Below are positions 12,425 through 44,666 of a stretch of DNA of 64,000 bases, one piece after another. Location of the stretch: the NCBI GenBank assembly GCA_030430575.1, contig JAUIKF010000018.1, positions 1 to 64,000 on the forward strand. Direction: 5' to 3'. The number at the start of each line of letters is the position of its first letter. The stretch's first letter is position 1. This stretch comes from Bacteroidia bacterium. Its GTDB lineage: Bacteria > Bacteroidota > Bacteroidia > J057. The notes under the pieces were generated by a model. It had not been told where the DNA came from. It worked only from the letters and a program-made list of their open reading frames with translations, and did not search any database. The translations under genes and the position numbers were made by a program.

Positions 12425-12435
12425 GGAATAGGATT

Positions 12436-13671: not shown

Positions 13672-13682
13672 AAAACATTGTC

Positions 13683-15476: not shown

Positions 15477-15510
15477 ATTTTCAAATCATCACTTTTAACT
15501 CATTTCAACA

Positions 15511-15786: not shown

Positions 15787-15970
15787 AAGCGTTTTCTAAA
15801 GGCCGAAGCTCGCTCTGAAAAGTCTAGGCTAGGACATCAAGCCCTACATTTTGTCACTTTTCTAGACTTATAGGATTGGTTTGTGGGTAATCCGAAACCA
15901 ACAGGGTTCATCGGCACCTAAACCCTGGGACCCTGTTATAGATATGGCAATCTACTTATGGATATATATC

Positions 15971-18031: not shown

Positions 18032-18078
18032 AATAGGTGTATACCATTTTCCGTCCTCATTTTCTATAAAACTTTATC

Positions 18079-20079: not shown

Positions 20080-20091
20080 AAATGGATTACA

Positions 20092-21792: not shown

Positions 21793-21972
21793 TCCTTTTG
21801 GTTTTTCAATAGCGTTCTTCATGGATTAGATGTATCCACAGTTAGCCAGATGAGTGTGCCCTTGGGACAAACCATTACAGGCGTTGTTCTAACGTTCGCC
21901 TTAGGAGGGATAAGCGGGTTTCTTATTGGAACGATATACAATATGGGAAAAAGACCTCTTGAACATTTCTGA
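21793..21972 (+). pseudogene. Remnant of a small membrane protein (DUF5676-like)
   Basis: Reading on in the same frame after the oxidase stop gives 59 codons to a TGA at 21970-21972. They encode a hydrophobic C-terminal fragment (FFNSVLHGLDVS ... TITGVVLTFALGGISGFLIG ... IYNM). It has the composition and spacing of DUF5676-type small membrane proteins, but there is no start codon at its natural N-terminus, only an internal ATG (21850). It looks like the tail of a gene whose front was lost where the oxidase gene now ends. Assignment to that family is from memory and not certain. Confidence 0.4.
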
Positions 21973-22023
21973 GTTTTTTCATTATCGTTTTTGCTTTGGC
22001 AAATATCAAAAAGGTCCATATAC

Positions 22024-22614
22024 ATGAATAAAGCAGACACAACACAAATAGCCGTCAAAAACATGGTTTGCAGCCGGTGCATACGGGTGGTGAAAGAAGA
22101 TTTGGAAAAACACGGATTTGTGATTGAATCCATATCATTGGGGCAAGTTATCCTATCTGGAACCCCTTCTGAAGAAGCCGTGGCAACGATAAAAAAAACG
22201 TTAGAAGCTAGCGGATTTGAAATGATTGAGGGAAGTCAACAAAAACTGATTGAGTTGGTCAAAACAAGCATCATCCAGCATATTTATATGAAAAAAGAGA
22301 AGCCTGACCATCTAAACTTTTCAGATTTTTTGGCTTTAGAGACTGGAACAAGTTATTCCAATTTGAGTAGGCTATTCTCTACAACAGAAGGACTGACTAT
22401 CGAGAAATACATTATCCTTCAAAAGATAGAGCGTGTTAAAGAACTCTTAGTGTATGGAGAACAAAACCTGAGTGAAATTGCCTTTGATCTTGGCTATAGT
22501 AGTGTGGCCCATCTTTCAGGCCAATTCAAAAAAGTAACTGGTCTTTCGCCTACTGGATTTAAACAATTGATAGCGCCACGTCGCCAACCCTTAGACAAAT
22601 TGACTGAGGAGTAA
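22024..22614 (+). CDS. AraC-family regulator with N-terminal HMA-like metal sensor
   Basis: A 196-residue protein. Residues about 5-70 look like an HMA fold with the motif NMVCSRCIRVV (CxxC), the rest is an AraC-type double helix-turn-helix (FSDFLALETGTSYSNLSRLF ... LSEIAFDLGYSSVAHLSGQFKKVTGLSPTGFKQ). Fusing a soft-metal-binding CxxC domain to AraC suggests direct Cu(I) or Hg(II) sensing. ATG 22024 is chosen; an upstream in-frame alternative start at 21991 lacks support. It stands alone before the HMA-MauE gene and is the likely activator of part of the rightward arm (inferred). Confidence 0.87.
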   Translation: MNKADTTQIAVKNMVCSRCIRVVKEDLEKHGFVIESISLGQVILSGTPSEEAVATIKKTLEASGFEMIEGSQQKLIELVKTSIIQHIYMKKEKPDHLNFSDFLALETGTSYSNLSRLFSTTEGLTIEKYIILQKIERVKELLVYGEQNLSEIAFDLGYSSVAHLSGQFKKVTGLSPTGFKQLIAPRRQPLDKLTEE

Positions 22615-22686
22615 CATACAAAATAATAGAAATTATCATCAAAAAGGGATAACACAACATTGAAGATTTAACATGATTTTTGAAGT

Positions 22687-23433
22687 ATGAACGATAAAAT
22701 CACGAAAGAGACCTTCACAATCACTGGAATGACCTGCGATGGCTGTGTAAATCGTGTTAAACAGGCTCTTTCCCAAATTGCCGAAATCATTACGATAGAT
22801 ATAAGCCTTGCAAATGGTGAGCTTGTCTTAGAATCTAAGAATGAAATACCCTTTGATACGCTCAAACAAGCGGTGAGTAATGCTGGTAACTATACGCTTT
22901 CCAAAAGCCACAAAGTAGACGTTCTTCCTTCGGCAATTAAAGAAGTACCTCCGATCTACAAACGGCTTTTCCCGTTATTTTTAGTTTTTAGCTATCTAAT
23001 TGGGTTTGTGGTTTTGAGACAGACAATCAATGGAGAATGGGATACCCCAGATGCTATGCGATCCTTTATGGGAAGCTTCTTTATTGTATTCTCTTTCTTC
23101 AAATTTCTGGACATTCGAGGGTTTGCCTATTCCTTTTCATCCTATGACCCCATTGCAAAACGTTGGTTAGGCTACGGTTATCTGTATCCTTTTATAGAGC
23201 TAATATTAGGCATATCCTATATCTCAGAAGTGAATCCGCTAATAACCAATGTAGCGACTTTGTTGATTTTGTCTTTGGGAACCATAGGGGTAGTAGATAC
23301 CCTGCGAAAGAGAGAGAATATCAAATGTGCCTGCTTGGGAACCATTTTCAACCTTCCGATGACAAAAGTCACTCTAATAGAAAATGGACTTATGATCATG
23401 ATGGCCTTATTGGCGATATTATACATGGTATAA
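22687..23433 (+). CDS. HMA domain fused to MauE-like membrane protein
   Basis: A 248-residue membrane protein. An N-terminal HMA domain (GMTCDGCVNRV) is followed by four or five TM segments of the MauE/DoxX superfamily (RLFPLFLVFSYLIGFVV ... YGYLYPFIELILGISYI). The C-terminus has CACLGTIFNLPMTKVTLIENGLM. The protein at 36272-36997 in the mobile element has the same architecture and the same C-terminal motif, CACLG.xF.LPMT.VTL. MauE-type proteins assist disulfide formation; here the CxxC-like CACLG may link metal and thiol chemistry (inferred). Confidence 0.85.
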   Translation: MNDKITKETFTITGMTCDGCVNRVKQALSQIAEIITIDISLANGELVLESKNEIPFDTLKQAVSNAGNYTLSKSHKVDVLPSAIKEVPPIYKRLFPLFLVFSYLIGFVVLRQTINGEWDTPDAMRSFMGSFFIVFSFFKFLDIRGFAYSFSSYDPIAKRWLGYGYLYPFIELILGISYISEVNPLITNVATLLILSLGTIGVVDTLRKRENIKCACLGTIFNLPMTKVTLIENGLMIMMALLAILYMV

Positions 23434-30768: not shown

Positions 30769-30842
30769 AGCCACAGGCTGCACTGACTGAGACGCGTTAA
30801 TGTAAAAACAGTCTAGGTCAGTGCAGAATCTGTGGCTTTTTT
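30769..30842 (+). terminator. Intrinsic terminator at the end of the metal island
   Basis: A two-part stem: AGCCACAG (30769-30776) pairs with CTGTGGCT (30830-30837), and TGCACTGAC (30779-30787) with GTCAGTGCA (30817-30825), followed by a T run to 30842. It ends the rightward mbnP/peroxidase operon, just before the oppositely oriented mobile-element operon. Confidence 0.85.
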
Positions 30843-30855: not shown

Positions 30856-31452
30856 CTATATCTCACATGTTAGCGCGCAACTTTCAAATGGCGGGTCGCC
30901 ACGTTCAGGGCAATTCCCAGAATAGATACAGGCCTCATCAGTAATGCTTTCATTGAGTTTCTGTATTGCTTCAGAATTATTATCACCAAAGTAAAGTAGG
31001 ATTTGGGCTTCTTCTTGGGTGATGTACTGAGCAAGGGCATCGTTAATTTCTCCATTCACATATAGCCGCAATACTTTTTCATCACTCACACAGTATTCTT
31101 CTCCTAAATCAGTTGCTAAACAATCATCCATGAGCCTAAAGCCAAGTGAATCAAGAAATTCTCCTAGTGCTAATTCATCAGCATGTCGGTGCAGCATAGT
31201 ATCGACTCCGTCATGCAGGTGAAAACTTAGATGTTTGGGATCATATGTTGTTGACTGATATTTGTCAGCAGTAAGATCAACTTTTGAACCGTTAATGTAC
31301 ATTACAAAATCACTATGCACATGAACCGTATCGCCATGTGACTGGGTAGTAGATTGATTATTCATATCAAGAATACCTGTATGCCAAACCGCCCATCCTC
31401 CCACTATAAGCAGGATTGCCCCCATAAGGAGGTATTGATGTTTCTTTGTCAT
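30856..31452 (-). CDS. Small membrane-anchored Cys/His protein (unknown family, CPR-like)
   Basis: A 198-residue protein with one N-terminal TM (about 7-27). It has a VHVHSDFVMYINGSKVDL strand-rich core, then HLSFHLHDGVDTMLHRHADE with paired His, and several Cys (DDCLA, EYCVSD). A C-terminal knuckle reads CIYSGNCPERGDPPFESCALTCEI-like, with five Cys in 24 residues. I recognise the ...YSGxCPERG... ending from uncharacterised proteins of Patescibacteria and some Archaea, but know no function. Last gene of the CsoR-led operon. Extracytoplasmic metal or disulfide chemistry is the best guess. Confidence 0.65.
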   Translation of the reverse strand: MTKKHQYLLMGAILLIVGGWAVWHTGILDMNNQSTTQSHGDTVHVHSDFVMYINGSKVDLTADKYQSTTYDPKHLSFHLHDGVDTMLHRHADELALGEFLDSLGFRLMDDCLATDLGEEYCVSDEKVLRLYVNGEINDALAQYITQEEAQILLYFGDNNSEAIQKLNESITDEACIYSGNCPERGDPPFESCALTCEI

Positions 31453-31457
31453 AAGAG

Positions 31458-32510
31458 TTAATTTGAAGTACTTAGACCAGACGTATTCCAGGCGTTTATT
31501 CCGCCATCAAGGTGAAGTACGCTGCTAAATCCGAGCTCTTCCATTAACTGTAAAGTCTTTCCTGAACGACTACCACTGCTACAGTATAAAAGATACTTGT
31601 CGTCAGGTTTCAGCGCGGCAATTTGTTCTGCAAAGTCACTTTCATAAAAATCAATTTCTAGGGCACTATCAATGATTTTTCCGCCAGCAATTTCTTGCGG
31701 TGTTCTGACATCAATCACAGTATAGTCGCCTGAAAGGGCTAATTTCTTAAAATCAGTTGTGTTAATGGAGTGATGATCATCGCCACTATTGTGCCCCGTA
31801 GGCGCATCGTTATCATGATGACCGTCACTGTTGTCGTGACCTTCAGGAACCTTTACGGCACTCTTCATACCCATTAATGGGTCACCATCATGGTGGCCGT
31901 CACTATTATTATGACCAGCCTCCATGTCGTTATCATGATGACCATCGCTATTATCGTGCATAGCTTCTGAAGTTGGAGCTTGGAACATTGATTTAAGTTC
32001 GTGCCCATGTTTTTCAGTAGATATTGGAATGCTGCGGAATATATTTTCCGAACTCTTGGCTCCAGCATAGTTTAGCCCTCCTAGAATAACTGACAAAACA
32101 ATGATTCCAGCGATAATCTTCTTGGCTACAGCTAATTTTGAGAGAATGCGTGCACCCACGATTACAGCCACTAATTCTAGAAGTGCAACAATAGCATCAA
32201 ATTGCCCAAAGGCTTCTGGGTAGGCTGCGAATGGTGCATTCATGATTCGCGTAAAGAGCCATAACGTAAGTAGTGCCCCATGAACAACCATGAGGATTTT
32301 GGTGGTTCTAATTCTCTTTTCAGGGTGCAGAAGCGCATACAGTCCCAATGCAAATTGCACAGTACCCATAAAGGTGAAGTACCAAAGCTCGATGAAGTTC
32401 TCTCGGTGCATGAGAGAAACAATAACGAGGTGAATAAGTCCGCTGGCAATGGTTAGACCAGCAAACCAATAATCTATTTTTTTATTTGGCGTAGCCGATA
32501 TTGTTTTCAT
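31458..32510 (-). CDS. Membrane rhodanese with His/Asp-rich repeats
   Basis: A 350-residue protein. The first about 155 residues make four to five TM helices (DYWFAGLTIASGLIHLVIV ... KIIAGIIVLSVILGGLNYAG). Residues about 175-255 are extracytoplasmic with four repeats of the form H-D/N-N-S-D-G-H-H-D-N-D, a strong metal-binding pattern. Residues about 260-345 form a rhodanese domain: DYTVIDVRTPQEIAGGK, active-site loop YCSSGSRSGKT with catalytic Cys, and GFSSVLHLDGGINAWN. It could pass sulfane sulfur to, or store, copper outside the membrane. Six nt separate it from the next gene. No known family has this whole architecture as far as I recall. Confidence 0.78.
   Translation of the reverse strand: MKTISATPNKKIDYWFAGLTIASGLIHLVIVSLMHRENFIELWYFTFMGTVQFALGLYALLHPEKRIRTTKILMVVHGALLTLWLFTRIMNAPFAAYPEAFGQFDAIVALLELVAVIVGARILSKLAVAKKIIAGIIVLSVILGGLNYAGAKSSENIFRSIPISTEKHGHELKSMFQAPTSEAMHDNSDGHHDNDMEAGHNNSDGHHDGDPLMGMKSAVKVPEGHDNSDGHHDNDAPTGHNSGDDHHSINTTDFKKLALSGDYTVIDVRTPQEIAGGKIIDSALEIDFYESDFAEQIAALKPDDKYLLYCSSGSRSGKTLQLMEELGFSSVLHLDGGINAWNTSGLSTSN
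31772..31975 (-). repeat. Coding tandem repeats (His/Asp-rich) in the membrane rhodanese
   Basis: Imperfect about 33-nt units encoding H-D/N-N-S-D-G-H-H-D-N-D occur four times, at spacing 15-35 codons apart. Variation between units shows they are not a recent slip. See the rhodanese gene for the protein view. Confidence 0.6.
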
Positions 32511-32523
32511 GGTTAATATTGTG

Positions 32524-33063
32524 TTAAGTAATAATTTCTTCGGCAGGGTTAGTGATACAGACCGCCCCTTCGTTCATTTTCTTGAGTAAAGACCTAATTG
32601 AGAACCCAAGAACGACAGTGCCGATATACAAGAACTCCTCCCCTCCCAACGGAAGAGTCGCCAATAGTGACGTCGCTCCAATTACAGTCAGTAGCGGAGT
32701 CAGTATTAGTGATCCACAAGCAGCACATCCAATTCCAAAGATCCCGAGAACACTGCCACCAACTCCTTTGAGGCTTGCTCTGGTAAGCTTAAACCTTTGA
32801 ACATATGCAATCAATGCTACGACGTACATACCCATGACCAATCCTAACAACGCTATCGAGACAAGTGACAAAACAGTATTGTTGCTGGTTATTACTCCTA
32901 GAAATGACCACGAGATGCTTGCATCAATCCCGGCTCGACGTAGTGCAGAAAATGTTCCCAAATGAGGCAAAAGAGTCACGCTAAAGAAAAGCAAGAGGGC
33001 GATTCCAATGGTCACAAGCCAGGGCCACAGAGGTTTGTACAGATTTCGTAATAGCAGCAGCAT
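32524..33063 (-). CDS. Integral membrane protein with CAACG motif (unknown)
   Basis: A 179-residue protein with four predicted TM helices (PWLVTIGIALLLFFSVTLL; VLSLVSIALLGLVMGMYVV; around GIGCAACGSLILTPLLTVIGATS; and FLYIGTVVLGFSIRSLL). The notable feature is CAACG in the third membrane segment, a possible membrane-embedded metal or redox site. It starts 2 nt after dsbA, so a partner role in thiol oxidation is plausible (inferred). I know similar uncharacterised proteins in Patescibacteria and Archaea only by pattern; no function is established. Confidence 0.62.
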   Translation of the reverse strand: MLLLLRNLYKPLWPWLVTIGIALLLFFSVTLLPHLGTFSALRRAGIDASISWSFLGVITSNNTVLSLVSIALLGLVMGMYVVALIAYVQRFKLTRASLKGVGGSVLGIFGIGCAACGSLILTPLLTVIGATSLLATLPLGGEEFLYIGTVVLGFSIRSLLKKMNEGAVCITNPAEEIIT

Positions 33064-33065
33064 AC

Positions 33066-33788
33066 TTAGCTAGCAAGTACCATTTCAATTAACCGGGAGA
33101 CTGCTTCGATCGGTTGTGCTCCATTAAGAGGAATTTTATTGCCGTCAGGTAGCATAATTATGCTCCAAGGGGTGCCTTGTCCGCCAGTATCGACTGCGTT
33201 TTGCAGGTTACGCTCTACTTTGCCAGCAAATTTTTCACTGTCGATACAGTCATAAAATTCACTAAGATCGAAGCTCATCTCTCCAGCAATTTGTGGCAGA
33301 ACCTCTTCCAAGTTGGTTCGATTATTCGATGGTGTAAGCTCAAGGAAACGATCACTAAACTGCCAAAATCCGTCAGATCCTTGCTGGTCAGCCGCACATT
33401 CAGCTGCAAGGGCTTCGCGCCTAGCTTTCACGGGGTGTAGTGACTCGATGGGCCAATGACGGTATATCCAGGCGACATCATCACCATATTCATCAACAAC
33501 CTCCTTCATGGTGTCATGGAATCGCTTACAGAATGGACACTCATAATCTGAGTATTCGATGATAGTGATTTTAGGGGTTTTGCTACCTCGTACATGGTCA
33601 GTTTTGTCTACAGGGAGCACATTCTCAAGAGGATTTTTTTGTGGTGCAGTAGGCTGTGTTTCTGTGCCATTAGAATTTACCTGGGCAATCTGACTGGGTG
33701 ACGAAGATTGTTCTGTATTGGTAAAGGCTATTGTTCCTGCGATAAGTACGCCAGTGATAATAATGGCAATTGGTGTGGTTAGCTTCAT
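33066..33788 (-). CDS. dsbA: DsbA-family thiol-disulfide oxidoreductase, membrane-anchored
   Basis: A 240-residue protein: N-terminal anchor (about 4-22), a Ser/Gln/Pro-rich linker, and a thioredoxin/DsbA domain with EYSDYECPFCKRFHD (active-site CPFC), an inserted helical domain (about 110-190), and the cis-Pro loop GGQGTPWSIIM. It would oxidise protein thiols outside the membrane. A second Cys pair lies at AECAAD and YDCIDS. In this operon it probably acts with the CAACG membrane protein and DUF1573 proteins. The family is common in Patescibacteria, where it is often the sole Dsb-like enzyme. Confidence 0.88.
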   Translation of the reverse strand: MKLTTPIAIIITGVLIAGTIAFTNTEQSSSPSQIAQVNSNGTETQPTAPQKNPLENVLPVDKTDHVRGSKTPKITIIEYSDYECPFCKRFHDTMKEVVDEYGDDVAWIYRHWPIESLHPVKARREALAAECAADQQGSDGFWQFSDRFLELTPSNNRTNLEEVLPQIAGEMSFDLSEFYDCIDSEKFAGKVERNLQNAVDTGGQGTPWSIIMLPDGNKIPLNGAQPIEAVSRLIEMVLAS

Positions 33789-33809
33789 GATAGTTAAGGG
33801 TTAATCTTG

Positions 33810-34358
33810 TTAGTACTTCACTTGTGCTGCTTTCACCGCAACAATGGTTTCGAAAAGGTATCCCACAGCGAAAATCACTATGATCCATGATCTCCATGCG
33901 ACTGACGGAATCCAGAGTGGAGCCACAGAGTTTAGAACTTCCCCCCATACAAATGCGATTGCAGCTGTGAATAGTATTGCCGTTGTGAGTGAAAAGTTCT
34001 TTGTCAAATAGTCCACTGATTCTTTGAGGTACAAGAACATGGCTGGATATCCAATTAAAAGTATGAGGGCTAGAAAATAGATCTCTTCATACACCCCAAC
34101 ATATTCCCAAGATTTGGTGAGAAGTCGAAATGCTTCCACTATGAGACCACTAAAGATGTATAGCACATACTGCCATAACACCTTATTTGTAATGTGCAGC
34201 CTGAAGCTTTTTTGGTTCAGTGCTCTTAACACTAAAAATAGTCCCACGATTACTAGTAGATACCACAATGGTTCTTTCCATACGAATGCAGACAAGATAC
34301 CCGTTGACACAACGAAACAGCCAATCATTATGGGTATTTTTGAGTTTACCTGTCTCAT
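33810..34358 (-). CDS. Multi-pass membrane protein of unknown function
   Basis: A 182-residue very hydrophobic protein with about six TM segments (IMIGCFVVSTGILSAFVW; LLVIVGLFLVL; VLYIFSGLIVEAF; LALILLIGYPAMFLYL; TTAILFTAAIAFVWGE; IIVIFAVGYLFETIV). One Cys in TM1, and E/W residues in the membrane. I do not recognise a family. It sits between the two DUF1573 genes and dsbA, with 3 and 21 nt gaps, so it belongs to the operon. A transporter or a partner of the thiol system are possible. Confidence 0.6.
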   Translation of the reverse strand: MRQVNSKIPIMIGCFVVSTGILSAFVWKEPLWYLLVIVGLFLVLRALNQKSFRLHITNKVLWQYVLYIFSGLIVEAFRLLTKSWEYVGVYEEIYFLALILLIGYPAMFLYLKESVDYLTKNFSLTTAILFTAAIAFVWGEVLNSVAPLWIPSVAWRSWIIVIFAVGYLFETIVAVKAAQVKY

Positions 34359-34361
34359 ACA

Positions 34362-34847
34362 CTACTCATTTTTGTATACATCCGCCGAAACACGCACCTC
34401 AATCTCTGGTGTTGTGATTGAATTTGTTTTAAGGAAGAGTTGCCTGGTGATCTGACCAGTACCATTAGGGCCGTGAGCCAGGGGGTCGTATATAGCAGTC
34501 AGCGGTACACTTTGACCAGCAGGGATATTGACAGACTTCCTCATGCTTTGGTGCATGCCAAAATCAACTCCACCGACTGAGCCAGTGGTGCAGCCACAAC
34601 TGGTTGAAGCTTGCTCGACGGTGACATCTTCTGTGCCATTATTCGTAAGGGTAAATTCTGTTTCTACATTGCCTGCAAATATATCGATCGAACCAAAGTC
34701 ATGCTCAGAGCGATCGACGGTGATTTCAGCTGCAATGGCTTGAGGAGTACTCATAATACTTTGAGAGGTATCTTTTGAAGAAGAAAGAAAGAAGGCTCCG
34801 ATAATCAACGCTCCTCCAATCAGGATTGTAATAATAGTTTTGTTCAT
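34362..34847 (-). CDS. DUF1573 domain protein, membrane-anchored
   Basis: A 161-residue protein: N-terminal TM (about 7-22), then an Ig-like DUF1573 domain with ITVDRSEHDFGSIDIFAGN, FTLTNNGTEDVTVEQASTSCGCTTG (the family's SCGCT Cys pair at about 80-83) and ITRQLFLKTNSITTPEIEVRV. Such domains are exported and their function is unknown. It lies 20 nt downstream of a gene with the same domain plus rhodanese, so the pair probably acts together in the periplasm. Confidence 0.82.
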   Translation of the reverse strand: MNKTIITILIGGALIIGAFFLSSSKDTSQSIMSTPQAIAAEITVDRSEHDFGSIDIFAGNVETEFTLTNNGTEDVTVEQASTSCGCTTGSVGGVDFGMHQSMRKSVNIPAGQSVPLTAIYDPLAHGPNGTGQITRQLFLKTNSITTPEIEVRVSADVYKNE

Positions 34848-34867
34848 GATGGTGTAATTAATAGTGA

Positions 34868-35794
34868 CTAATTGCCTTCATCGATGTCGACCTGGATGAC
34901 TACTTCAGCTTCGGGGGTATTGGGGTCATTGGTCGGAATAAATACCGTGCGCTTGAATTGCCCCAGAGGTTCCTCATGGAAGTCTGGGTCAAAAATGACC
35001 GTAAGTGTGGCAGACTCGCCAGGCCTAATGATGTTTTGGTCAATGCTTGCTGTAGTGCAACTACAACTGGTGGTGAGCGATCCGACCTCTAGGTTTTCTG
35101 AACCAGGGTTAGAGATGATAAATTCGTGCAATACAGTCCCGCCTGATCTTGGGATAACTCCGAAATCATAAAAGTCATTAGGGATGCTAATTTCTGCACC
35201 TGATGTTGTTACAGGGCTTTTATCTACATTAGCGTTCGTGTTCCAGGCGGGCCCAGAGTAAACCCCAGACGCTGTATACGGATAACCATCTTCCTGCCAG
35301 TGAATCATGCCGCCTTGGATACTCTTGAGATTAGTGTACCCAAGTGAAGTCATGATATTGTAAGCAACTTGGCTGCGAGCGCCACTGCGACAGTAGAGAA
35401 TAATTTCCTTGTCCTTCATGTCAGCTCCTAATCCAATGGTTTCGAGGGTTTGCACCGACAACTCCTCGACAGGAAGTAGTCTTGCGTCTTCTAGGTGGAC
35501 CGTTTCGTATTCATCAGGACGCCTGACGTCCAACAGAATAATATCTTCGTTATTTTTGATTTTGTTTACTACATCGCCAGGGTAAATTTCAAAGCCTGGG
35601 TTGTTGCCATCATGGTGTCCGCTTGTTGCTATTTCAGTTGCTTGATTTTCAGGTTTGTCGGCAATGTGCCTAGAAACGTTTTCTGTGCCTGTGGCTTGCG
35701 TATTGGGAGTGTCATTGTTCTTGAGAAGAAGGAACAGCGCGGCTACGATGATAGCAACCACGACTAGTCCAATGACTGCTTTGGTTGTGTTCAT
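34868..35794 (-). CDS. Rhodanese-DUF1573 fusion protein, membrane-anchored
   Basis: A 308-residue protein: TM anchor (about 6-24), linker with TSGHHDGNNPG (echo of the repeats in the membrane rhodanese), rhodanese domain (about 70-165: IILLDVRRPDEYETVHLED; loop LYCRSGARSQVAY with catalytic Cys; IQGGMIHWQEDGYP), then a DUF1573 domain (about 205-305: FYDFGVIPRSGGTV, LTTSCSCTTASID, FIPTNDPNTPEAEVVIQV). The C-S-C-T pair matches the SCGCT of the neighbouring protein. Fusion of sulfur transfer to a Cys-pair domain suggests extracytoplasmic persulfide or copper-thiol chemistry (inferred). Confidence 0.82.
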   Translation of the reverse strand: MNTTKAVIGLVVVAIIVAALFLLLKNNDTPNTQATGTENVSRHIADKPENQATEIATSGHHDGNNPGFEIYPGDVVNKIKNNEDIILLDVRRPDEYETVHLEDARLLPVEELSVQTLETIGLGADMKDKEIILYCRSGARSQVAYNIMTSLGYTNLKSIQGGMIHWQEDGYPYTASGVYSGPAWNTNANVDKSPVTTSGAEISIPNDFYDFGVIPRSGGTVLHEFIISNPGSENLEVGSLTTSCSCTTASIDQNIIRPGESATLTVIFDPDFHEEPLGQFKRTVFIPTNDPNTPEAEVVIQVDIDEGN

Positions 35795-35830
35795 GTTGTG
35801 TGGTTAGATTAACTAATAAAGTATTCTAAC

Positions 35831-36253
35831 CTAGCTCAGATGTGAGCGTGGAAGTTGTTGGATAAGGGGCTTGTTTTTGGTGTGAGATATATCCCCAAAA
35901 ATTGGGGTTGGTTTCCAGGCCTTGGAGATCGTTTTATCAGATTGCCATAGCTGAGTAATCAGAAAAGCAGGTGTCGGACTGGTATCTTCTGGTGCAGTTA
36001 ATTGCTCTGGATTAGTACCTGTACGAATTAAGGCGATGTATTGCTGTGCTTGTGGACTACTACATTGATTTGACCCTAGACCCGAACAGTCAACGGTGAT
36101 TACCGTAGGCGAATCATGGTGACTCATCATGTGATTAGCGTGATCTTGCCCCCAGACACAACAAGCACCCAAAAAGGTGAGCACTCCAATAAGTATAATT
36201 AATACTTTTGTCTGCGCAATATATCTCCAGTTGAATATCGGATGAGGATTCAT
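35831..36253 (-). CDS. Small secreted His/Cys protein of unknown family
   Basis: A 140-residue protein with an N-terminal hydrophobic segment (VLIILIGVLTFLGACCVWG; the GAC could be a lipobox). The mature part has DHANHMMSHHDS (His/Met-rich, likely Cu-binding), VDCSGLGSNQCSSPQAQQYIALIRTG, and no recognisable domain further on. It is 18 nt after the HMA-MauE gene. A copper-buffering or chaperone role is suggested by the His/Met stretch and operon position; it could also be a truncated protein. Confidence 0.55.
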   Translation of the reverse strand: MNPHPIFNWRYIAQTKVLIILIGVLTFLGACCVWGQDHANHMMSHHDSPTVITVDCSGLGSNQCSSPQAQQYIALIRTGTNPEQLTAPEDTSPTPAFLITQLWQSDKTISKAWKPTPIFGDISHTKNKPLIQQLPRSHLS

Positions 36254-36271
36254 ACAGCAAGTATAGCACTC

Positions 36272-36997
36272 TTAAAGTGCAATTAGGATCATAATTAGAG
36301 CTTCTGCTGCCATTAACACGTCTTCTACCAAGGTCACCCAAGTCATAGGGAGCTTAAACACCATCCCGAGACATGCACATGGAATTTCTTCACGCTGGCA
36401 AAGTTTTTGGACAACACCAATAGTGCTGACAGACATAAGGATAAGGGTAAATATGTCTCGATAGATGCCGCCAATATCAGCAAAGTAGAGGAATGCTAGG
36501 GCAATTTCTAAAAATGGATATAGGTATGCATAGAACCGAAACCGTTTAGCAACAACATCATACGTCTGATAGGCATCGGCAAACTTGCGTAAGTTAAACA
36601 TCTTGAAGGCTCCGAAAATGGCAAAGAACCCTCCCATGAACATACGCATACCAAATTCAAAACCTTGGTCTACAAATAGCACCATCAACGTGGTGAACAC
36701 AATGATCACAGCTGTGATAACGATAATTGGCAGGAAGTCTTTGAGTGGTCGTTTTGGCCTTGCCATGGAGCGACCATCCATGACCATCATTTCGTTACTT
36801 AGGTAATATGGGCCCACTTTTGACAAGGCCTTGTTGAAGACTGACTGAGAAATATGAATACTCATTTCGGCTGAAGCTTGCTTTGCTTCTCGGTCTACAG
36901 ACACACTAGAAACACCCTCTACTGACTGGAGTGCTTTAGTGACTTTTTCTTGACATGATTCACAGGTCATACCACTGAGTGTGTAGGTATGCTTCAT
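36272..36997 (-). CDS. HMA domain fused to MauE-like membrane protein (mobile-element copy)
   Basis: A 241-residue membrane protein starting at ATG 36997 (MKHTYTLSGMTCESCQEKV). The HMA domain CxxC is GMTCESC. Four to five TMs follow (FLPIIVITAVIIVFTTLMVLF ... YAYLYPFLEIALAFLYF), then CACLGMVFKLPMTWVTLVEDVLM. The chromosomal protein at 22687-23433 has the same layout and ending, though the sequences differ widely. It starts 1 nt after the csoR stop, so the two are translationally linked. Probable role: Cu(I) binding and handling at the inner membrane, with a thiol partner (inferred). Confidence 0.85.
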   Translation of the reverse strand: MKHTYTLSGMTCESCQEKVTKALQSVEGVSSVSVDREAKQASAEMSIHISQSVFNKALSKVGPYYLSNEMMVMDGRSMARPKRPLKDFLPIIVITAVIIVFTTLMVLFVDQGFEFGMRMFMGGFFAIFGAFKMFNLRKFADAYQTYDVVAKRFRFYAYLYPFLEIALAFLYFADIGGIYRDIFTLILMSVSTIGVVQKLCQREEIPCACLGMVFKLPMTWVTLVEDVLMAAEALIMILIAL

Positions 36998-36998
36998 A

Positions 36999-37259
36999 TT
37001 ATTTTCGTTTGAGCTTATAGACTTGGAGTATTTCGTCTTTCGCTTTTTCTCCTTGCCCAGATTCAAACTGCTTAACAACACAGGTAGAAAGATGTCGTTC
37101 GAGTAGTTTGTCTTCTAGTGAAGCCAAGGCATTACGAATAGCAGAGGTCTGCGTAATAACATCAATACAGTAGCGATTTTCTTCAAGCATTTTTTGCACA
37201 CCGCGAACTTGCCCTTCGATGAGCTGGAGTCTTTTGACGAGTGCCTTGATGTCATTCAT
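36999..37259 (-). CDS. csoR: CsoR-family copper-sensing repressor
   Basis: An 86-residue all-helical repressor with RLQLIEGQVRGVQKMLEENRYCIDVITQ and the complete Cu(I) site C31, H56, C60 (YC ... RHLSTC). Copper binding releases it from DNA. ATG 37259 is chosen; an upstream in-frame extension runs through the operator into the relaxase frame and is not real. It lies right behind its own operator/promoter (37267-37295) and leads ten genes with gaps of 1 to 36 nt, so the operon should be copper-inducible. The small distance from the -10 box to ATG suggests a nearly leaderless transcript. Confidence 0.9.
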   Translation of the reverse strand: MNDIKALVKRLQLIEGQVRGVQKMLEENRYCIDVITQTSAIRNALASLEDKLLERHLSTCVVKQFESGQGEKAKDEILQVYKLKRK

Positions 37260-37266
37260 TGCTAGT

Positions 37267-37295
37267 ATTTTATACCCTATAGGGGTATCAAGCAA
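37267..37295 (-). promoter_or_regulatory. csoR operon promoter, sigma70-like, with CsoR operator in the spacer
   Basis: On the minus strand: -35 TTGCTT (37290-37295), 17-nt spacer, -10 TAAAAT (37267-37272). The spacer contains ATACCC/GGGTAT (37272-37277 and 37283-37288), a G/C-block palindrome of the kind bound by CsoR. Placement between -35 and -10 fits repression and copper induction. This is a sigma70-form promoter, unlike the TAnnTTTG form at 7874. Confidence 0.75.
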
Positions 37296-37333: not shown

Positions 37334-38125
37334 TTACCGTCCTTGAATTAACCCCTTTCTTCTTAATTGATGAACCTTTCCCTGGTTTACCCCCACCGTC
37401 CGAAACCGATACTTCCTTCCATTCCACCAAACGCCCATCGGAACACCTTTCCGATAATAAGGCTCCAAGCCACTCGAACTCACTTTCCCTAGAAATTCAT
37501 CCAAAGAATCAGACTGATCAAGGGCCAAGCCAATTATTAAGTGTAGTCTTTCTTTCGTGGTGAGTTGATCAGAATTCTGTTTGTACCAGTACTCCTGTTG
37601 GGTGAGTTGTGGCTGTTGAGCATTGCCATGAGCAGGAAGTGAGTGAGTGATTTCAGGAAAATGTTCTTGCTGATAATGCTGAACAGAACGCTTGAGGTCA
37701 GCCATCTGCTTCTTCGTCATCCGAAGACTCCGCCCAGTACCATATTCAACCGCCGATACAGCAAAATGGATATGGATGTTGCCACCCTTAGATTCTTGGT
37801 GAATACCTCCAAGAAAAAGTCCATTGGGGTTTCGATGCTCGATATATTCACGAGCGATTTGCTCTAGTTTAGGGATGGATAAATGAGGGGTATCCTCAGG
37901 GTGAAAACTAATGATTTCATGGGTTAGCAAGATATTGTTCTTGCGACGATGAAGCCTACCAGCTTCATTCTGCTCAAACTCTTGCACCAATTCATCAATG
38001 GTGCTTCCATTTAAGTTATGGCGAATAATATGACTCTCGGGAAGTTTTTCCTCAGACATGAGGATATAGGTAAGTAAATTGCGGAATGCCTTTTTTCCGC
38101 GAAGGGATTTGATTTTGATGATCAT
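37334..38125 (-). CDS. Relaxase/mobilization nuclease (MobP-like)
   Basis: A 263-residue relaxase. Motif I tyrosine is Y20 (LLTYILMSEE); motif II/III His are H69 (LLTHEIISFHP) and the metal triad H109, H118, H120 (GIHQESKGGNIHIHFAVSAVEYG). It nicks and pilots DNA at oriT for conjugal mobilization. It is short, without a primase or helicase domain, so it depends on a helper system. The csoR promoter lies just after its stop, marking the border between the mobilization genes and the copper operon. No separate terminator is seen between, so the operon may also be read from upstream. Confidence 0.85.
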   Translation of the reverse strand: MIIKIKSLRGKKAFRNLLTYILMSEEKLPESHIIRHNLNGSTIDELVQEFEQNEAGRLHRRKNNILLTHEIISFHPEDTPHLSIPKLEQIAREYIEHRNPNGLFLGGIHQESKGGNIHIHFAVSAVEYGTGRSLRMTKKQMADLKRSVQHYQQEHFPEITHSLPAHGNAQQPQLTQQEYWYKQNSDQLTTKERLHLIIGLALDQSDSLDEFLGKVSSSGLEPYYRKGVPMGVWWNGRKYRFRTVGVNQGKVHQLRRKGLIQGR

Positions 38126-38163
38126 GGGTTGATGTGCCTAGCATCAAATCAGGGTATTGAAAT

Positions 38164-38649
38164 CTAATCTCGTGGTTTTTGGGGAACCTTTAGGGGAGAG
38201 TTGATCTGCTTTTCTAAGCTTTCGTAGCGTTTGGCCAAGGCTGTGATAACTTCTGCCAATTCTTGCTGGCCCATTCTCTGGATGTGCTTGCTGAGCATCC
38301 TAAGATCACTTTGAGTAATGCGTAGCATTTGCTCGATATGACCGTACTGTTTGGGTTTTGGGAGATGCGATGAGCCTTGTCGAAAAGCTTGGTAGCAAGC
38401 TTTAATAGTGGTCGCTAGCGGTTTTTGATATTGTCCTGCAAAAACCCTTAAAGACTGGTATTCATCTTGACTAAAACGAACCGTTACTTCTGGGTTTTCA
38501 CTTCGGTGTTGGCGCGCATGGTTTCGCTTGTACTGTTTGCGATAAGCTTTTTTGGCCTGTGATAATGCTTCTTCATTGGACAGGTCAATCCCACTTTCAT
38601 ACAGCCACTCCCACATCTTGCTTCCATAGCGTGGCGGGCGTTTTTTCAT
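38164..38649 (-). CDS. MobC-like mobilization protein
   Basis: A 161-residue protein with a basic N-terminus (KKRPPRYGSKMWEW), a stretch of Lys/Arg/His (KAYRKQYKRNHARQHRSENPEV), a possible ribbon-helix-helix (VTVRFSQDEYQSLRVFAGQYQKPLATTIKAC) and a coiled-coil C-terminal half. It fits the relaxosome accessory proteins that bind oriT. It overlaps the coupling-protein gene by 4 nt (ATGA) and precedes the relaxase by 38 nt. Precise family unknown. Confidence 0.7.
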   Translation of the reverse strand: MKKRPPRYGSKMWEWLYESGIDLSNEEALSQAKKAYRKQYKRNHARQHRSENPEVTVRFSQDEYQSLRVFAGQYQKPLATTIKACYQAFRQGSSHLPKPKQYGHIEQMLRITQSDLRMLSKHIQRMGQQELAEVITALAKRYESLEKQINSPLKVPQKPRD

Positions 38650-40073
38650 GATTGGTGGGGATTAGTTGGTGCTGAATGGAGCGGAAGGGACGCAAAAATC
38701 TTGAAAGGCTTGTATTGGTAGAAAGGGGTAACCTTGGTGAGGATTGGCGGATGATGACCTGCCAGAAGCAAAACAAGGTTTTTGGGGAGCGTTCGGATTT
38801 GGTCTAGGGTCATAAGGGGTCGGATCATCTTCCTCCCATCTTCATCTACAAATTCGACTTTCCCCAAAGTTTCTTCCAAGTTTCTGGCTGTCTCCAAGCC
38901 TTGGCCTGTGAAGTAGACTTGGGTATAGCAATTGGTAAGAATGGTCTGCTGAAGGCCACGCCCAAAGCGCGCCAATTGTCCTATATCTTGAACTCCTAGA
39001 GCAACGCCTGCTCGGTATTTTCGGATGTTGGTCAAGGTGTTCACCAGAGTGGTGCCAGGGATTTGCAGGATGCCTGCTTCATCAATCAAGCAGAAAACAT
39101 CTAAATGATCGAGACGTGGTGTCTTGAGCAATTTGCCAAATAACTGTTCAAAGAAGATGCTGGTTAGTGGTGCTAAGTAATTTTGGTCTGCAACGGGGTT
39201 TGTAATGAAGAGAGCTACTTTTTTGATGCGAAACAGGTCCAATGACAAAGAATCGTAGGCTGTGACTTTAGCTACTTGCTCGTCGGTAAAAATCTGCAAG
39301 GCACTTAAAGCCGTTGCGATGATGCCTACCCGCAGCTTTTCGTCAAAACTCTGAAAGGATTTATACTCATTGGTAATAGATTTGTCTGCGACCTTGTCCA
39401 TCAGATGGTCTAAGGCTTTTACATCACTGCTAAAGGAAATGAGCAGGCTTCGGACTTGACTGAAGGTTTGTTGGGTTAGGGTGGTTTGTTTGACGAATCG
39501 AATAAATAGCCCAATCAGGTTGACTGCTTGCAGATTCCAGAACTTATCAGAAGAACTGCTCAGGCTATTTTGCACCAACATGGCAGCGATACGATTGATT
39601 TGTGCAAGCGAATTGGCCCTGGCTATAGGGTTATAGCCAATTGACCTTTTTGCATCTCCGAAATTAAGGATTCTGACATCGTAGCCTGTCCTTGCCAGAT
39701 AACCTGCACTGGCTTCATATAATGAGCCACTGGGGTCATGAATGATTAGGCTGCCGGCACCTTTTACGCCTGCCATGCGGTAGATAGAAGGCTGGAAAAT
39801 ATTGGCAGATTTACCTGCGCCAGTCTGTCCAACCACCAGCATATTTCGATAGGACAATTCACGGCTAATGCTCTTTTTTGACCCAATGGCAAAACCATTA
39901 TTTCGGGAAGAGAGCATGGCTTTTTCCTTGCCAAAATTGGCTGTAAATCCACGTGTATTCGGTTTGGGAAAAGCCTTTTCTACGGCTTTTTCAACTAATT
40001 TCGTGAGTATCTCCTCAATGATGTGAAGAAGTGCCGCCAGCACCTCCTCGATGATCTGAAGAAAATGATTCAT
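38646..40073 (-). CDS. TraG/VirD4-type coupling ATPase
   Basis: A 475-residue coupling protein. Walker A is VVGQTGAGKSANIF (G82-S89), Walker B LDVFCLIDEAGIL, followed by FYQYKPF-type end. Residues 1-35 form an amphipathic helix instead of the usual TM pair, so membrane anchoring is reduced. It links the relaxosome to a type IV secretion channel. No T4SS genes lie in the window, so the element is mobilizable rather than self-transmissible on this evidence. ATG 40073 is chosen over an in-frame start at 40097. Confidence 0.85.
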   Translation of the reverse strand: MNHFLQIIEEVLAALLHIIEEILTKLVEKAVEKAFPKPNTRGFTANFGKEKAMLSSRNNGFAIGSKKSISRELSYRNMLVVGQTGAGKSANIFQPSIYRMAGVKGAGSLIIHDPSGSLYEASAGYLARTGYDVRILNFGDAKRSIGYNPIARANSLAQINRIAAMLVQNSLSSSSDKFWNLQAVNLIGLFIRFVKQTTLTQQTFSQVRSLLISFSSDVKALDHLMDKVADKSITNEYKSFQSFDEKLRVGIIATALSALQIFTDEQVAKVTAYDSLSLDLFRIKKVALFITNPVADQNYLAPLTSIFFEQLFGKLLKTPRLDHLDVFCLIDEAGILQIPGTTLVNTLTNIRKYRAGVALGVQDIGQLARFGRGLQQTILTNCYTQVYFTGQGLETARNLEETLGKVEFVDEDGRKMIRPLMTLDQIRTLPKNLVLLLAGHHPPILTKVTPFYQYKPFKIFASLPLHSAPTNPHQS

Positions 40074-40105
40074 GTTTTGACTCGCCTTACACAACAAGTC
40101 AGGGG

Positions 40106-41860
40106 TTAGGAAGCTTGATTGTCTTTGTTCTGAGTCAATATCTGGGTTCGGACGTTGTCCAATCCCCGCAGCAAAATAGGACGGACAGCATCAAAAACGC
40201 TGTTCTGACTAGTAGTATCAACGATTTTTTCGGGTTCGAACAGTGGATTTTTGCGTTTGGCTGTGGTGAGGGCATTTACGAGTGCTTGTACGGGTTTGGC
40301 GTTGATAATACTGAGTTTTTCCTCATCCCAGAGCAGGTTCGAACGAAGTTTGCTTAAAACGATTTGCTTTTCTTTAAATGCCCCATTTTGGATCACATTG
40401 GTAAATTCTTCATCCAGAGAGACAATCTCCTCCGCACGCTTCAGCCAATCTTCTTCCTCGGGTTGCTGGGCATATGTCCACTGAAGATTGAGTTCTTTTA
40501 GGTCTGATTCATATTCGTCTTGAGTTATTAACTCCTTGCGGTACATTTCCCTTAACTTTTTCTTTTCTGCCTCAATCTGCTCATTTGTTTTCGCTCGTGA
40601 CTCTTTAATCAGTTTCTCTTCCTTGATTTCTTGCTCTTTTATAGTCCTTAGATGATGAAAAATCCATGATTTAAGGGCTGGGGAAAACGTGAGGTTATTA
40701 TCTACAAAGTCGATAAGGAATGCCTCTATTTTCTTCTCTCTCACGGTCCTTGCAATTGCGTTTTTGTCCCTCCTTCGCTTCACATTGTAATAATGTACAT
40801 AAGCGTAATATCGGGGTAGTTTCATAGTACTAATTCGTGTTCCACATTTCGGACAGGCTTCCTTATTCTTGGGGCAGAACTTATGCTTACAATCACAGAT
40901 CAAGTTGAGCGTATGGTCTACTCCCATTGAACCATCGTAAGTAGACTTGAGGATGTGTACATACGGGGAATAATGTCGCTTTCTCTTTGAAATATTTTGC
41001 CTTCCCAAAAAGCTTAGGATTTTGTGATGATCGTCCTCGGTGATTAGTCGTGGCATTTGGGGATCAAGCTCATAGCGTTTTCTTGGACCCTTTTCATCAG
41101 CAGCTAAGAAATACCCAGCATAAATTGGATTCCGAAGTATCTGCTGATGGACATAAGACCGAGATACCAGTTTCCCACCTGATCCTTTTCTGATTGGAGT
41201 GGTGAGTTTAAGGGTATTTTGGGCATAGTTAGCAATTGAAGTGACTGAGTGCCGGCCTGTCAAAAACTCGACTAAAACCTGTTGTACAAGGCTCAGTTTA
41301 TGTTCATCCATTAGCCATTTCCGATTGCCTTTTTCTTGACTCAAATCATTAATAAATCCTAGCGGGGCAATTCCAGTTGGTAGCCCCTTTTTATAGCGTT
41401 TCTTGAGTCCACTTTTGACAAATACACTTTTGTCATCCGAGTCCTTTTTTGACATCGTGAATTCAAATTGGAGCATCATCTTGTCAGTTGGCGTATTGTG
41501 ATAAATCCTCGTAGGAGTTTTGATACATATCAATTTGCCTATATCCATGAGATAGATAATCTGTCCTGCATCAATTGGGTTTCTTGCTAAGCGATTGGGG
41601 TGCCAAGTCCACCAAGCATTTACCTTATCTTCAAAGGTCAATTTCACAAGGTGAGCAAAACCTTCTCTACCTGGGGAAAAGGCTGATTTGGATTCCTCAA
41701 TGGGCTTATCGTGAAATTGAAAACTCTCCTTTTCATGGCACTCCCAAAAATCATCTACTTGTCGATCGATGGATTGCACTTGCTTATCTTCTGATTCAGA
41801 AGATTTCCTCGCATACCCCTGATAGACAAGGGGTATGTCACTATAGGTATCTATTTGCAT
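40106..41860 (-). CDS. Large serine recombinase (RKSSE type)
   Basis: A 584-residue large serine recombinase: N-terminal resolvase domain with YARKSSESEDKQVQSIDRQ (catalytic S20) and WTWHPNRLARNP, recombinase domain, zinc-ribbon (LICDCKHKFCPKNKEACPKCGTR), and a long coiled coil (about 415-475). The RKSSExEDxQ signature is one I associate with recombinases of Patescibacteria and their plasmids; Bacteroidota ones differ. It integrates or excises an element. It lies 33 nt upstream of the coupling-protein gene and 13 nt downstream of a terminator/attenuator candidate. Confidence 0.88.
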   Translation of the reverse strand: MQIDTYSDIPLVYQGYARKSSESEDKQVQSIDRQVDDFWECHEKESFQFHDKPIEESKSAFSPGREGFAHLVKLTFEDKVNAWWTWHPNRLARNPIDAGQIIYLMDIGKLICIKTPTRIYHNTPTDKMMLQFEFTMSKKDSDDKSVFVKSGLKKRYKKGLPTGIAPLGFINDLSQEKGNRKWLMDEHKLSLVQQVLVEFLTGRHSVTSIANYAQNTLKLTTPIRKGSGGKLVSRSYVHQQILRNPIYAGYFLAADEKGPRKRYELDPQMPRLITEDDHHKILSFLGRQNISKRKRHYSPYVHILKSTYDGSMGVDHTLNLICDCKHKFCPKNKEACPKCGTRISTMKLPRYYAYVHYYNVKRRRDKNAIARTVREKKIEAFLIDFVDNNLTFSPALKSWIFHHLRTIKEQEIKEEKLIKESRAKTNEQIEAEKKKLREMYRKELITQDEYESDLKELNLQWTYAQQPEEEDWLKRAEEIVSLDEEFTNVIQNGAFKEKQIVLSKLRSNLLWDEEKLSIINAKPVQALVNALTTAKRKNPLFEPEKIVDTTSQNSVFDAVRPILLRGLDNVRTQILTQNKDNQAS

Positions 41861-42938: not shown

Positions 42939-43010
42939 CTCTCAAATATTCAAGATCAGATTTTCCTTTTTACCCTCAGTATTTTGTATCTTGAAGGAAA
43001 AACACAAGCT

Positions 43011-44666
43011 ATGGAAAACTCTAAAAAGCCCATTGGGATTTGGGTGCGTGTCTCGACCGAAGATCAAGCCAAAGGCGAAAGTCTAGAACACCATGAACAT
43101 CGAGCCAAGATGTATGCCGAGGTCAAAGGTTGGGAGGTAAAAGAGGTGTACCGCCTTGGGGGAGTAAGCGGCAAGGCTGTCATTGATCATCCTGAGGCCA
43201 GACGTATGATGAGGGATGTCAAATCAGGCCATATCTCAGGGCTGATTTTTTCCAAACTCGCGCGTCTGGCTCGTTCTACCAAACAACTCCTAGAATTTGC
43301 TGACTTTTTCCAAGCCTATGATGCCGACTTAATATCTCTCCAAGAGTCCATTGATACCTCGACCCCAGCGGGTCGTCTTTTTTATACGATCATTGCGGCG
43401 ATGGCTCAGTGGGAGCGTGAGGAGATTGCTAATCGAGTGAAGGCATCCATTCCTGTTCGTGCTAAGTTAGGAAAGCACCTAGGAGGCCAAACTCCCTATG
43501 GCTATCAGTGGACTAACGACAAGTTGGAGATAAATCCGCAAGAAGCTCCCGTAAGGAAATTGATGTTCGAGTTATACCTTGAGCATAAGCGATACAAGCA
43601 GGTCATTCGAATATTGAATGAGCGTGGGTACCGCACAAGGAAAGGACGGAAGTTTGCCATTAATACAATCAAGCGATTACTTACTGACCCTGTCGCCAAA
43701 GGGCTAAGAAGAACTAACTATACAGATAGCCAAGGGCCCGGAAAATTTTGGAAACTAAAGCCAGAAGAAGACTGGGTATTTCAAAAAGTACCCGCCATTG
43801 TTTCGGAGGAGCTATGGGATAAAGTCAATGCAATCATTGAAGCTCAAACCTTCAAGCGAACTAATCCTTCCCGTGGCGTGGTGCACTTATTTGCAGGCTA
43901 TACCTATTGCACATGTGGCACCAAAATGTATGCTCGTTCTCGTTCACCCAAGTATGTCTGCACCAAGTGTAAGATAAAAATAGAGATACAAGACCTTGAA
44001 GATATTTTCAGGGAGCAACTGCGTACCTTTATCATTGATAGTGATCAAGTAGCCGCTCACCTCAACACAACCCATGAGGCCATTGCTAGCAAAGAAGTTC
44101 TACTAGACAACCTAGAACAAGAAGTCATTGCACTCAATGAAAAGCTTAGTGGCTTGATAGAGTTATTCCAAAAAGGGCAACTCCCCCAAGAAGGATTTGG
44201 CAAGCACTATCAACCTATCTTTGATCAACTCAAACAAACCGAACAGCGAATCCCAGAGCTAAAAGGAGAAATAGATTTCCTGAAAATCCAACTCCTCTCT
44301 AGTGATCAAATCCTCAGTGAAGCACATAGCCTTTACGAAAGATGGCCTGAAATGCCTTTCAAATCCAAGCGATCTATTATCGAAGCTATCTTGCAAAAGA
44401 TCATCATTGGAGAGGATGAAATAGAGATTTTCCTTCATCACTTACCCACCATAAAGGATATAGATTCCACAACCTCCCCGACCACCCTCCCAGAGACGAA
44501 TGTTGATTTCACATCACATTCGTCAGAATTGATACCAAAAGGGTTCCGCAACCTCTTCAAAGAGGTTTTCGCGCACCAGAGGGGATGTGGGAAGTCCTCT
44601 TTGAAGAGGACGGGGCATGCGGGGTTCAGGAGATGTGAAAGCCAGAAGCAACAAGCTTTCCATTAA
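43011..44666 (+). CDS. Large serine recombinase
   Basis: A 551-residue large serine recombinase: WVRVSTEDQAKGES (catalytic S15), FSKLARLARST, EREEIANRV, recombinase domain around QTPYGYQW, zinc ribbon YCTCGTKMYA...YVCTKCK, and a coiled coil (about 365-420). It differs in signature from the RKSSE recombinase, so two unrelated integrases bound the unit. ATG 43011 is chosen over an in-frame start at 42984. The last about 45 residues (GFRNLFKEVFAHQRGC onward) are basic and encoded over two palindromes, so the end may be read-through of attachment-site DNA. Confidence 0.9.
   Translation: MENSKKPIGIWVRVSTEDQAKGESLEHHEHRAKMYAEVKGWEVKEVYRLGGVSGKAVIDHPEARRMMRDVKSGHISGLIFSKLARLARSTKQLLEFADFFQAYDADLISLQESIDTSTPAGRLFYTIIAAMAQWEREEIANRVKASIPVRAKLGKHLGGQTPYGYQWTNDKLEINPQEAPVRKLMFELYLEHKRYKQVIRILNERGYRTRKGRKFAINTIKRLLTDPVAKGLRRTNYTDSQGPGKFWKLKPEEDWVFQKVPAIVSEELWDKVNAIIEAQTFKRTNPSRGVVHLFAGYTYCTCGTKMYARSRSPKYVCTKCKIKIEIQDLEDIFREQLRTFIIDSDQVAAHLNTTHEAIASKEVLLDNLEQEVIALNEKLSGLIELFQKGQLPQEGFGKHYQPIFDQLKQTEQRIPELKGEIDFLKIQLLSSDQILSEAHSLYERWPEMPFKSKRSIIEAILQKIIIGEDEIEIFLHHLPTIKDIDSTTSPTTLPETNVDFTSHSSELIPKGFRNLFKEVFAHQRGCGKSSLKRTGHAGFRRCESQKQQAFH
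44550..44611. repeat. Paired 18-bp palindromes at the recombinase 3' end
   Basis: Two palindromes: AACCTCTT-CA-AAGAGGTT (44550-44567) and GTCCTCTT-TG-AAGAGGAC (44594-44611). They share a core (CCTCTT..AAGAGG), are mutually inverted in the central dinucleotide (CA/TG) and are 44 bp apart. This is the size and symmetry expected of a serine-recombinase crossover region; candidate att site at the right border of the element. Confidence 0.5.

Follow-up and report, generated by a model that had tools for sequence, protein, structure and literature searches.

Copper-responsive operons governed by the repressor CsoR are described as csoR-copA and copZ-csoR-copA units, in which a G/C-rich pseudo-palindromic operator lies in the promoter and the copper genes follow downstream. 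The same features are seen in a ten-gene operon at 30856-37259 (minus strand) of contig JAUIKF010000018.1 from a Bacteroidia bacterium (phylum Bacteroidota; assembly GCA_030430575.1); the window analysed here comprises bases 1-64000 of this 129-kb contig, and the genome measures 8.16 Mb in 127 contigs, with 99% completeness and 2.21% estimated contamination. The operon differs from those units in having no ATPase (Pfam found no P-type copper ATPase among its ten genes) and in its cargo, made of rhodanese, DUF1573 and DsbA proteins along with unannotated membrane and secreted proteins.

As for Scs (suppressor of copper sensitivity; ScsA-ScsD), copper tolerance is tied there to a thioredoxin-fold protein outside the cytoplasm and to its redox partner in the membrane; Cu(I) binding is reported for ScsB and ScsC, and the Scs proteins set the precedent for such a pair serving copper tolerance by redox work together with Cu(I) binding (PMC8900818). 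The window has a thioredoxin-fold CxxC protein as well (dsbA, CPFC); however, family searches showed no DsbD/ScsB likeness for the adjacent membrane protein, called CAACG for its motif, and its model has no fold match. Pfam detected nothing DsbD-like among the ten proteins, and the rhodaneses and DUF1573 come in addition. Operons of the CstR type likewise place rhodaneses behind a CsoR-family repressor, but the window repressor has the copper-type triad, sulfide-oxidising enzymes are absent, and the relatives have copper partners. The greatest likeness is with loci of Patescibacteria that read csoR, rhodanese-DUF1573, DUF1573 and, in the longer form, dsbA, CAACG and a multicopper oxidase: order, operator and proteins agree, whereas those loci have a P-type ATPase, in some cases together with a multicopper oxidase, the window gene orf6 is missing from all of them, and most of their CsoR proteins have a C-H-H triad.

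The operon is read here as copper-responsive, of mainly Patescibacterial origin and transferred into a Bacteroidota chromosome, with a probability of about 0.62. Judging from the sequences compared, what appears to be new is a recurrent Patescibacterial copper operon with neither name nor description in the literature searched, the presence of that operon type in the chromosome of a Bacteroidota bacterium, and a pair of conserved families lacking annotation (CAACG and an HxHxD/Cys family), of which CAACG also occurs in haloarchaea and stands repeatedly beside DsbA-like proteins. The earlier sequence-only reading, whose observation is confirmed and whose interpretation holds in large part though not entirely, had known no named system of this composition, and no paper found by title or abstract describes one (Patescibacteria with copper, CsoR, resistance transfer or multicopper oxidase; DUF1573 with copper), although subscription journals were sparsely covered and the absence is unproven.

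The operon and its copper-type repressor

The components of the operon, from csoR downstream, are the following.

37272-37288, no strand assigned: CsoR operator ATACCCCTATAGGGTAT, with 12 nucleotides (nt) between it and the csoR ATG
36999-37259, minus: csoR, Cu(I)-type repressor (PF02583 1e-25, 90.4 bits against a cut-off of 22.8; PDB 4m1p 3.6e-22)
36272-36997, minus: HMA-MauE membrane protein (Pfam HMA 1.9e-11, MauE 1.6e-16)
35831-36253, minus: His/Met-rich protein of 140 amino acids, probably secreted; no family
34868-35794, minus: membrane-anchored rhodanese-DUF1573 fusion (Pfam rhodanese 1.3e-14, DUF1573 1e-16)
34362-34847, minus: DUF1573 protein (Pfam 2.1e-12)
33810-34358, minus: membrane protein orf6; no family, no relatives found
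33066-33788, minus: dsbA, DsbA-like thiol oxidoreductase with CPFC active site (Pfam DSBA/Thioredoxin_4 1.9e-17)
32524-33063, minus: CAACG multi-helix membrane protein, putative DsbA partner; no Pfam family
31458-32510, minus: membrane protein with His-rich repeats and a C-terminal rhodanese, the His-rhodanese (Pfam rhodanese 1.9e-14)
30856-31452, minus: secreted or anchored protein with HxHxD, HxH, HxH and Cys, the His/Cys protein; no family
30778-30826, no strand assigned: putative terminator hairpin past the last gene, with 16-nt arms that are 88% complementary

Reading of the sequence gives intergenic gaps of 1, 18, 36, 20, 3, 21, 2, 13 and 5 nt; the ten leftward genes, their spacing of 1 to 36 nt and the operator before csoR were all as the sequence-only reading had stated. 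Its gene list also stood, with two rhodanese and two DUF1573 proteins recognised by Pfam, which found families in six of the ten proteins and none above cut-off in those starting at 35831, 33810, 32524 and 30856.

Regarding the repressor, its triad Cys31-His56-Cys60 is the Cu(I) ligand set, and it lines up with a structurally solved CsoR as well as with CsoR proteins from Patescibacteria; the window repressor is 60-62% identical to the CsoR of Patescibacterial copA operons, with which it has the C-H-C triad in common, and it is the only CsoR-family gene product of the host genome. CstR has two cysteines and no histidine at the Cu-ligand position, whereas His56 is present in the window protein.

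The operator follows the pattern ATACCC-N5-GGGTAT, which occurs a single time in the genome, and it possibly sits in the 17-nt spacer between a -35 hexamer, TTGCTT (37295-37290), and a -10 hexamer, TAAAAT (37272-37267); sigma-70-like sites in the region were no commoner than in shuffles, and the promoter scan was uninformative here. A like operator lies about 11-23 nt from the csoR start in 15 of the 16 Patescibacterial csoR loci inspected (L014, L123, L217-L224, L226, L120, L124, L125, L126), the exception being L119, where the distance is 268 nt; L227 and L224 have one upstream of the fusion gene as well. In several of these loci the operator occupies the spacer behind a TTGACA-like hexamer; the corresponding hexamers in the window are TTGCTT and TAAAAT. 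Copper control of the operon, which had been claimed from the window, is thereby supported by comparison, in that the triad and an operator like those before csoR in Patescibacterial copper loci both point to it.

Patescibacterial counterparts of the operon

The closest arrangement was found in the Patescibacterial genome G1084 (L217), in which csoR is followed by a copB-type ATPase, a small Met-rich protein, the fusion, DUF1573, dsbA, CAACG and a multicopper oxidase. Seven further loci (L218-L223, L226) have csoR, fusion and DUF1573 in this order, most with an ATPase nearby, and L119 reads csoR, copA, an HMA-DsbD-like gene, a cupredoxin-like gene and the fusion (the middle names were given by reading). 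Operon pieces repeatedly accompany copper genes in Patescibacteria, and the co-occurrence of these genes is not chance, because subsets of them recur elsewhere in the same order. That Patescibacteria are the home of related pieces had been suggested earlier, and the genome searches bore this out. The same sequence-only reading had held that the unit would be a chance assembly if its genes fell in unrelated trees, did not co-occur elsewhere and gave no copper response: on the first two counts, csoR, the fusion, DUF1573, dsbA and CAACG speak against chance, their trees not being unrelated and the genes co-occurring in other genomes, and so do the His-rhodanese and His/Cys proteins in smaller clusters, whereas HMA-MauE is nearest, weakly, to Bacteroidota, and relatives of orf6 and of the His/Met protein were not found.

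The fusion has the catalytic loop CRSGARS and the Cys pair SCSCT, and within one Patescibacterial order 10 of the 397 genomes have full homologues, 51-64% identical. A second DUF1573 gene stands behind the fusion in most of the Patescibacterial loci fetched, and the window has the same succession on one strand; in its DUF1573 protein the T-S-C-x-C-T motif is invariant, as are Cys84 and Cys86 in the 15 sequences aligned. The N-terminal part of the His-rhodanese is 42% identical to a protein of G1243 (L225) encoded directly behind dsbA and ahead of a multicopper oxidase. Several Patescibacterial copper loci also contain, behind DUF1573, a further membrane protein with the motif CCxNSTYFPDCNHGMAMLGLLELLAAND (L117:6539-7555, L121:883-1920, L218:5911-6801).

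The window DsbA falls in a clade with 19 Patescibacterial DsbAs (97/94), near those adjoining CAACG, and dsbA directly precedes CAACG in ten Patescibacterial loci (L006, L007, L009, L010, L011, L014, L016, L123, L217, L227). CAACG, whose presence and motif had been noted earlier along with DsbA and were both confirmed, has Cys113, Cys116 and Cys169 invariant in 22 sequences from Patescibacteria and haloarchaea; a family scan of GTDB genome contigs gave its best matches in Patescibacteria, with haloarchaea second. No convincing match was obtained in Pfam, NCBIfam or PDB sequences, no fold match for its model, no relative in IMG/VR and none among the 59 host relatives searched. CAACG is a putative redox partner of DsbA, given the pairing of the two genes across Patescibacteria, the overlap of CAACG with a thioredoxin-domain gene in Halorussus (L005) and its three invariant cysteines. 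CAACG proteins are widespread in haloarchaea (L003, L004, L005, L012-L059), and thioredoxin-domain genes are nearby in Haladaptatus too. A MerT/MerC-like origin was considered for CAACG, and comparison with the MerT-like/HMA protein of the window (6878-7486) gave nothing.

In the His/Cys protein the HxHxD, HxH and HxH motifs and three cysteines are invariant in 12 sequences, and its domain is fused to DsbA in three Patescibacteria (L084, L087, L085/L123), the fusion in L123 sitting behind dsbA-CAACG. It had no convincing match in Pfam, NCBIfam or PDB; its model, with a predicted local distance difference test (pLDDT) score of 82, had no fold match at E<=0.001; folds of cobalamin carriers and of the ubiquitin-like kind came up weakly, at E 0.066 or worse. 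One Patescibacterial frame, L101:1468-3453, runs from an apparent P-type ATPase end via multicopper-oxidase domains to the HxHxD/Cys domain.

HMA-MauE is 36% identical to a paralogue at 22687-23433 of the window, and csoR-MauE pairs exist in the Patescibacterial loci L088/L124, L090/L125 and L091/L126. The slot of the His/Met protein is filled in Patescibacterial operons by the small Met-rich protein, with no detectable similarity between the two. A small Met-rich membrane protein ending in LQELFSSGILHPKLF is kept just before the fusion (L117:4592-5059, L122:751-1263, L217:8015-8437), and it is absent or unrecognisable in the window.

Likely function and origin

Gene content and order, the operator, the triad, the relatives, the DsbA phylogeny and the absence from host relatives were observed, whereas in the following scheme we infer where the proteins reside, that copper lifts the repression, that the proteins bind metal, and each of the redox reactions. 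CsoR would repress the operon from the operator within its promoter, and cytosolic Cu(I), by binding Cys31-His56-Cys60, would release it from the DNA. The products would act outside the cytoplasmic membrane, most of them being predicted, from signal-like N-termini and membrane segments, to reside in or beyond it. There, copper would be bound by the Cys-x-Cys of the DUF1573 domains and by the His/Met-rich and HxHxD/HxH/HxH proteins, DsbA and its candidate partner CAACG would re-form disulfides disturbed by copper, and the two membrane rhodaneses may move or load sulfane sulfur or mend thiols that copper has damaged. The Patescibacterial set would work alongside a multicopper oxidase and a P-type ATPase for copper, functions that in the window could come from the host copper island to the left (18079-21792). 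The likely function is thus extracytoplasmic Cu(I) handling with thiol/disulfide repair, Scs-like in role though its membrane partner is unrelated, in line with the extracytoplasmic thiol, sulfur and copper set proposed by the sequence-only reading.

As for its origin, most of the operon looks transferred from Patescibacteria, because its order is like that of G1084, its DsbA lies within the Patescibacterial clade, and Bacteroidota offer only generic single-domain matches: in 395 of their genomes, the best non-self matches were ordinary DsbA, rhodanese and DUF1573 proteins, at up to 45% and over single domains. Several points weigh against this origin or the function proposed with it. The ten genes were together in none of the sampled loci, and orf6 and the His/Met protein had no detectable relatives in the genome searches, the large ones of which scored two candidates per genome, so that weaker relatives may be missed. 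In the HMA-MauE tree, the window protein has Bacteroidota as its nearest neighbours, weakly supported, and shares that side with a Patescibacterial row on a long branch, and most Patescibacterial csoR genes beside the fusion (L217-L226) encode C-H-H and not C-H-C. The putative CAACG-DsbA partnership is based on adjacency and three invariant cysteines. The nearest Patescibacterial genes are about 45-64% identical, which is too distant to point to a donor. Codon usage correlates at 0.57-0.72 with three Patescibacterial loci and from near zero to 0.2 with four others, while it also correlates at 0.72 with one host locus and at 0.57 with the left flank; it is weakly informative, and neither codon usage nor G+C decides the origin.

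Among the other explanations, a stepwise local assembly in Bacteroidota, in which a native HMA-MauE copper gene gathered foreign genes and the ten do not form one functional unit, is unlikely: the placement of HMA-MauE, the two genes lacking relatives and the separate Patescibacterial clusters of the His-rhodanese and His/Cys proteins would suit it, but the succession of csoR, fusion, DUF1573, dsbA and CAACG is that of G1084, and the tight gaps and the one operator of the same design argue for a unit. It is less probable still that the operon answers to reactive sulfur in the manner of CstR, its repressor sensing persulfides and its rhodaneses and DUF1573 proteins serving sulfide detoxification; two rhodanese proteins are indeed present, and there is a resemblance of the DUF1573 domain to NCBIfam OS_HP2 and of the rhodanese to sulfurtransferase models, yet the Cys-His-Cys triad is complete, Pfam showed neither a sulfide:quinone oxidoreductase nor a persulfide dioxygenase in the operon, and the Patescibacterial counterparts hold copper ATPases and multicopper oxidases.

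There is little to recommend a third phylum as the source, with Patescibacteria and this Bacteroidota both recipients: the patchy occurrence in Patescibacteria (recall the full fusion in 10 of 397 genomes) and the thioredoxin-domain genes near CAACG in haloarchaea speak for it, but the window DsbA is nested in a Patescibacterial clade, where several branches surround it, and Patescibacteria show diversity in each of the csoR-MauE, dsbA-CAACG and fusion modules. An assembly artefact, by which DNA of a Patescibacterial epibiont was misjoined to the host contig, is the least probable of all; the 127 contigs, the estimated contamination and a mob module repeated in the genome, which could mislead an assembler, are set against host-syntenic DNA on both sides within a 129-kb contig, a mob repeat only 85% identical, an operon G+C equal to that of its neighbourhood and a left junction at which no repeat was found.

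Transfer of a copper-responsive operon from Patescibacteria into this Bacteroidota chromosome would, if true, put a multigene regulated Patescibacterial operon in a large, free-living-type Bacteroidota genome, the reverse of the gene flow into Patescibacteria that has been studied, e.g. with Bacteroidota as donors (PMC12455944), and could point to physical partners. More speculative, and rather doubtful as a whole, is the wider proposal of an undescribed extracytoplasmic copper-thiol defence, with CAACG as a new DsbA partner of bacteria and archaea and HxHxD/Cys as a novel family that binds copper, handed on by a Patescibacterium, possibly an epibiont, to a Bacteroidota cell which was maybe its host.

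Mobilization genes and host flanks

Upstream of csoR lies a set of mobilization and recombinase genes.

37334-38125, minus: relaxase mobA, MobA/VirD2-like (PF03432 2.1e-13)
38164-38649, minus: MobC-like small gene, 161 amino acids; no family, named by its position between relaxase and coupling protein
38646-40097, minus: VirD4/TraG coupling protein (PF02534 1.1e-35); a second copy in the genome is 90% identical
40106-41860, minus: large serine recombinase; its type is common in Patescibacteria
42984-44666, plus: second serine recombinase, only distantly related to the first (PF00239 9.2e-31)

A second mob module of the same genome (G000:C19:4212-9540, L116) is 85% identical in nucleotides over window positions 37389-40114, relaxase and MobC-like gene included, and has a different serine recombinase and no copper cargo; the mob genes are therefore a host-resident module. 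The identity stops 55 base pairs before the mobA end (37334-37389), beside the csoR promoter, and therefore the cargo joins the mob module there, at a recombination joint. The other module adjoins a cas1-like gene (named by reading) and a CRISPR-looking repeat array.

The recombinase at 40106 is of a type that 60 of 145 Patescibacteria have (E<=1e-20), against 6 of 100 host relatives, the host included (E<=1e-15); a serine recombinase tree gave it no resolved origin, and related recombinases are near three Patescibacterial CAACG/copper loci (L009, L016, L217). Plasmid searches returned CsoR matches below 60%, fragments for MauE, generic rhodaneses, distant haloarchaeal matches for CAACG, generic coupling proteins and weak recombinase matches. 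At the locus, no convincing terminal repeats, element ends, attachment (att) sites or empty site were found. The sequence-only reading had placed the operon on a mobilizable element, which is plausible: the relaxase, coupling protein and recombinase are there, while their link to the operon is adjacency to a module that also exists with no cargo.

Both flanks are host-like DNA that matches a genome of this genus at about 71-76% identity, in left-hand blocks across 8912-30666 and right-hand ones across 45640-47977, with 74-75% for the DNA on the two sides of the segment, and the flanking genes, judged by reading their proteins, are Bacteroidota-like. The segment between a second cytochrome-c-peroxidase-like gene (ending at 30748) and a HAD-phosphatase gene (starting at 44725) comprises the ten-gene operon, the relaxase, the small gene, the coupling protein and the two serine recombinases; in the same-genus genome this segment is beside neither flank, and there the flanks sit on different contigs.

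Finally, a host copper/metal island at 8750-23433 of the window, mostly kept in the genus, contains RND efflux genes and these further genes.

18079-20079: copB-type ATPase, outside the operon and the nearest P-type ATPase to it
20092-21792: multicopper oxidase
22687-23433: HMA-MauE paralogue

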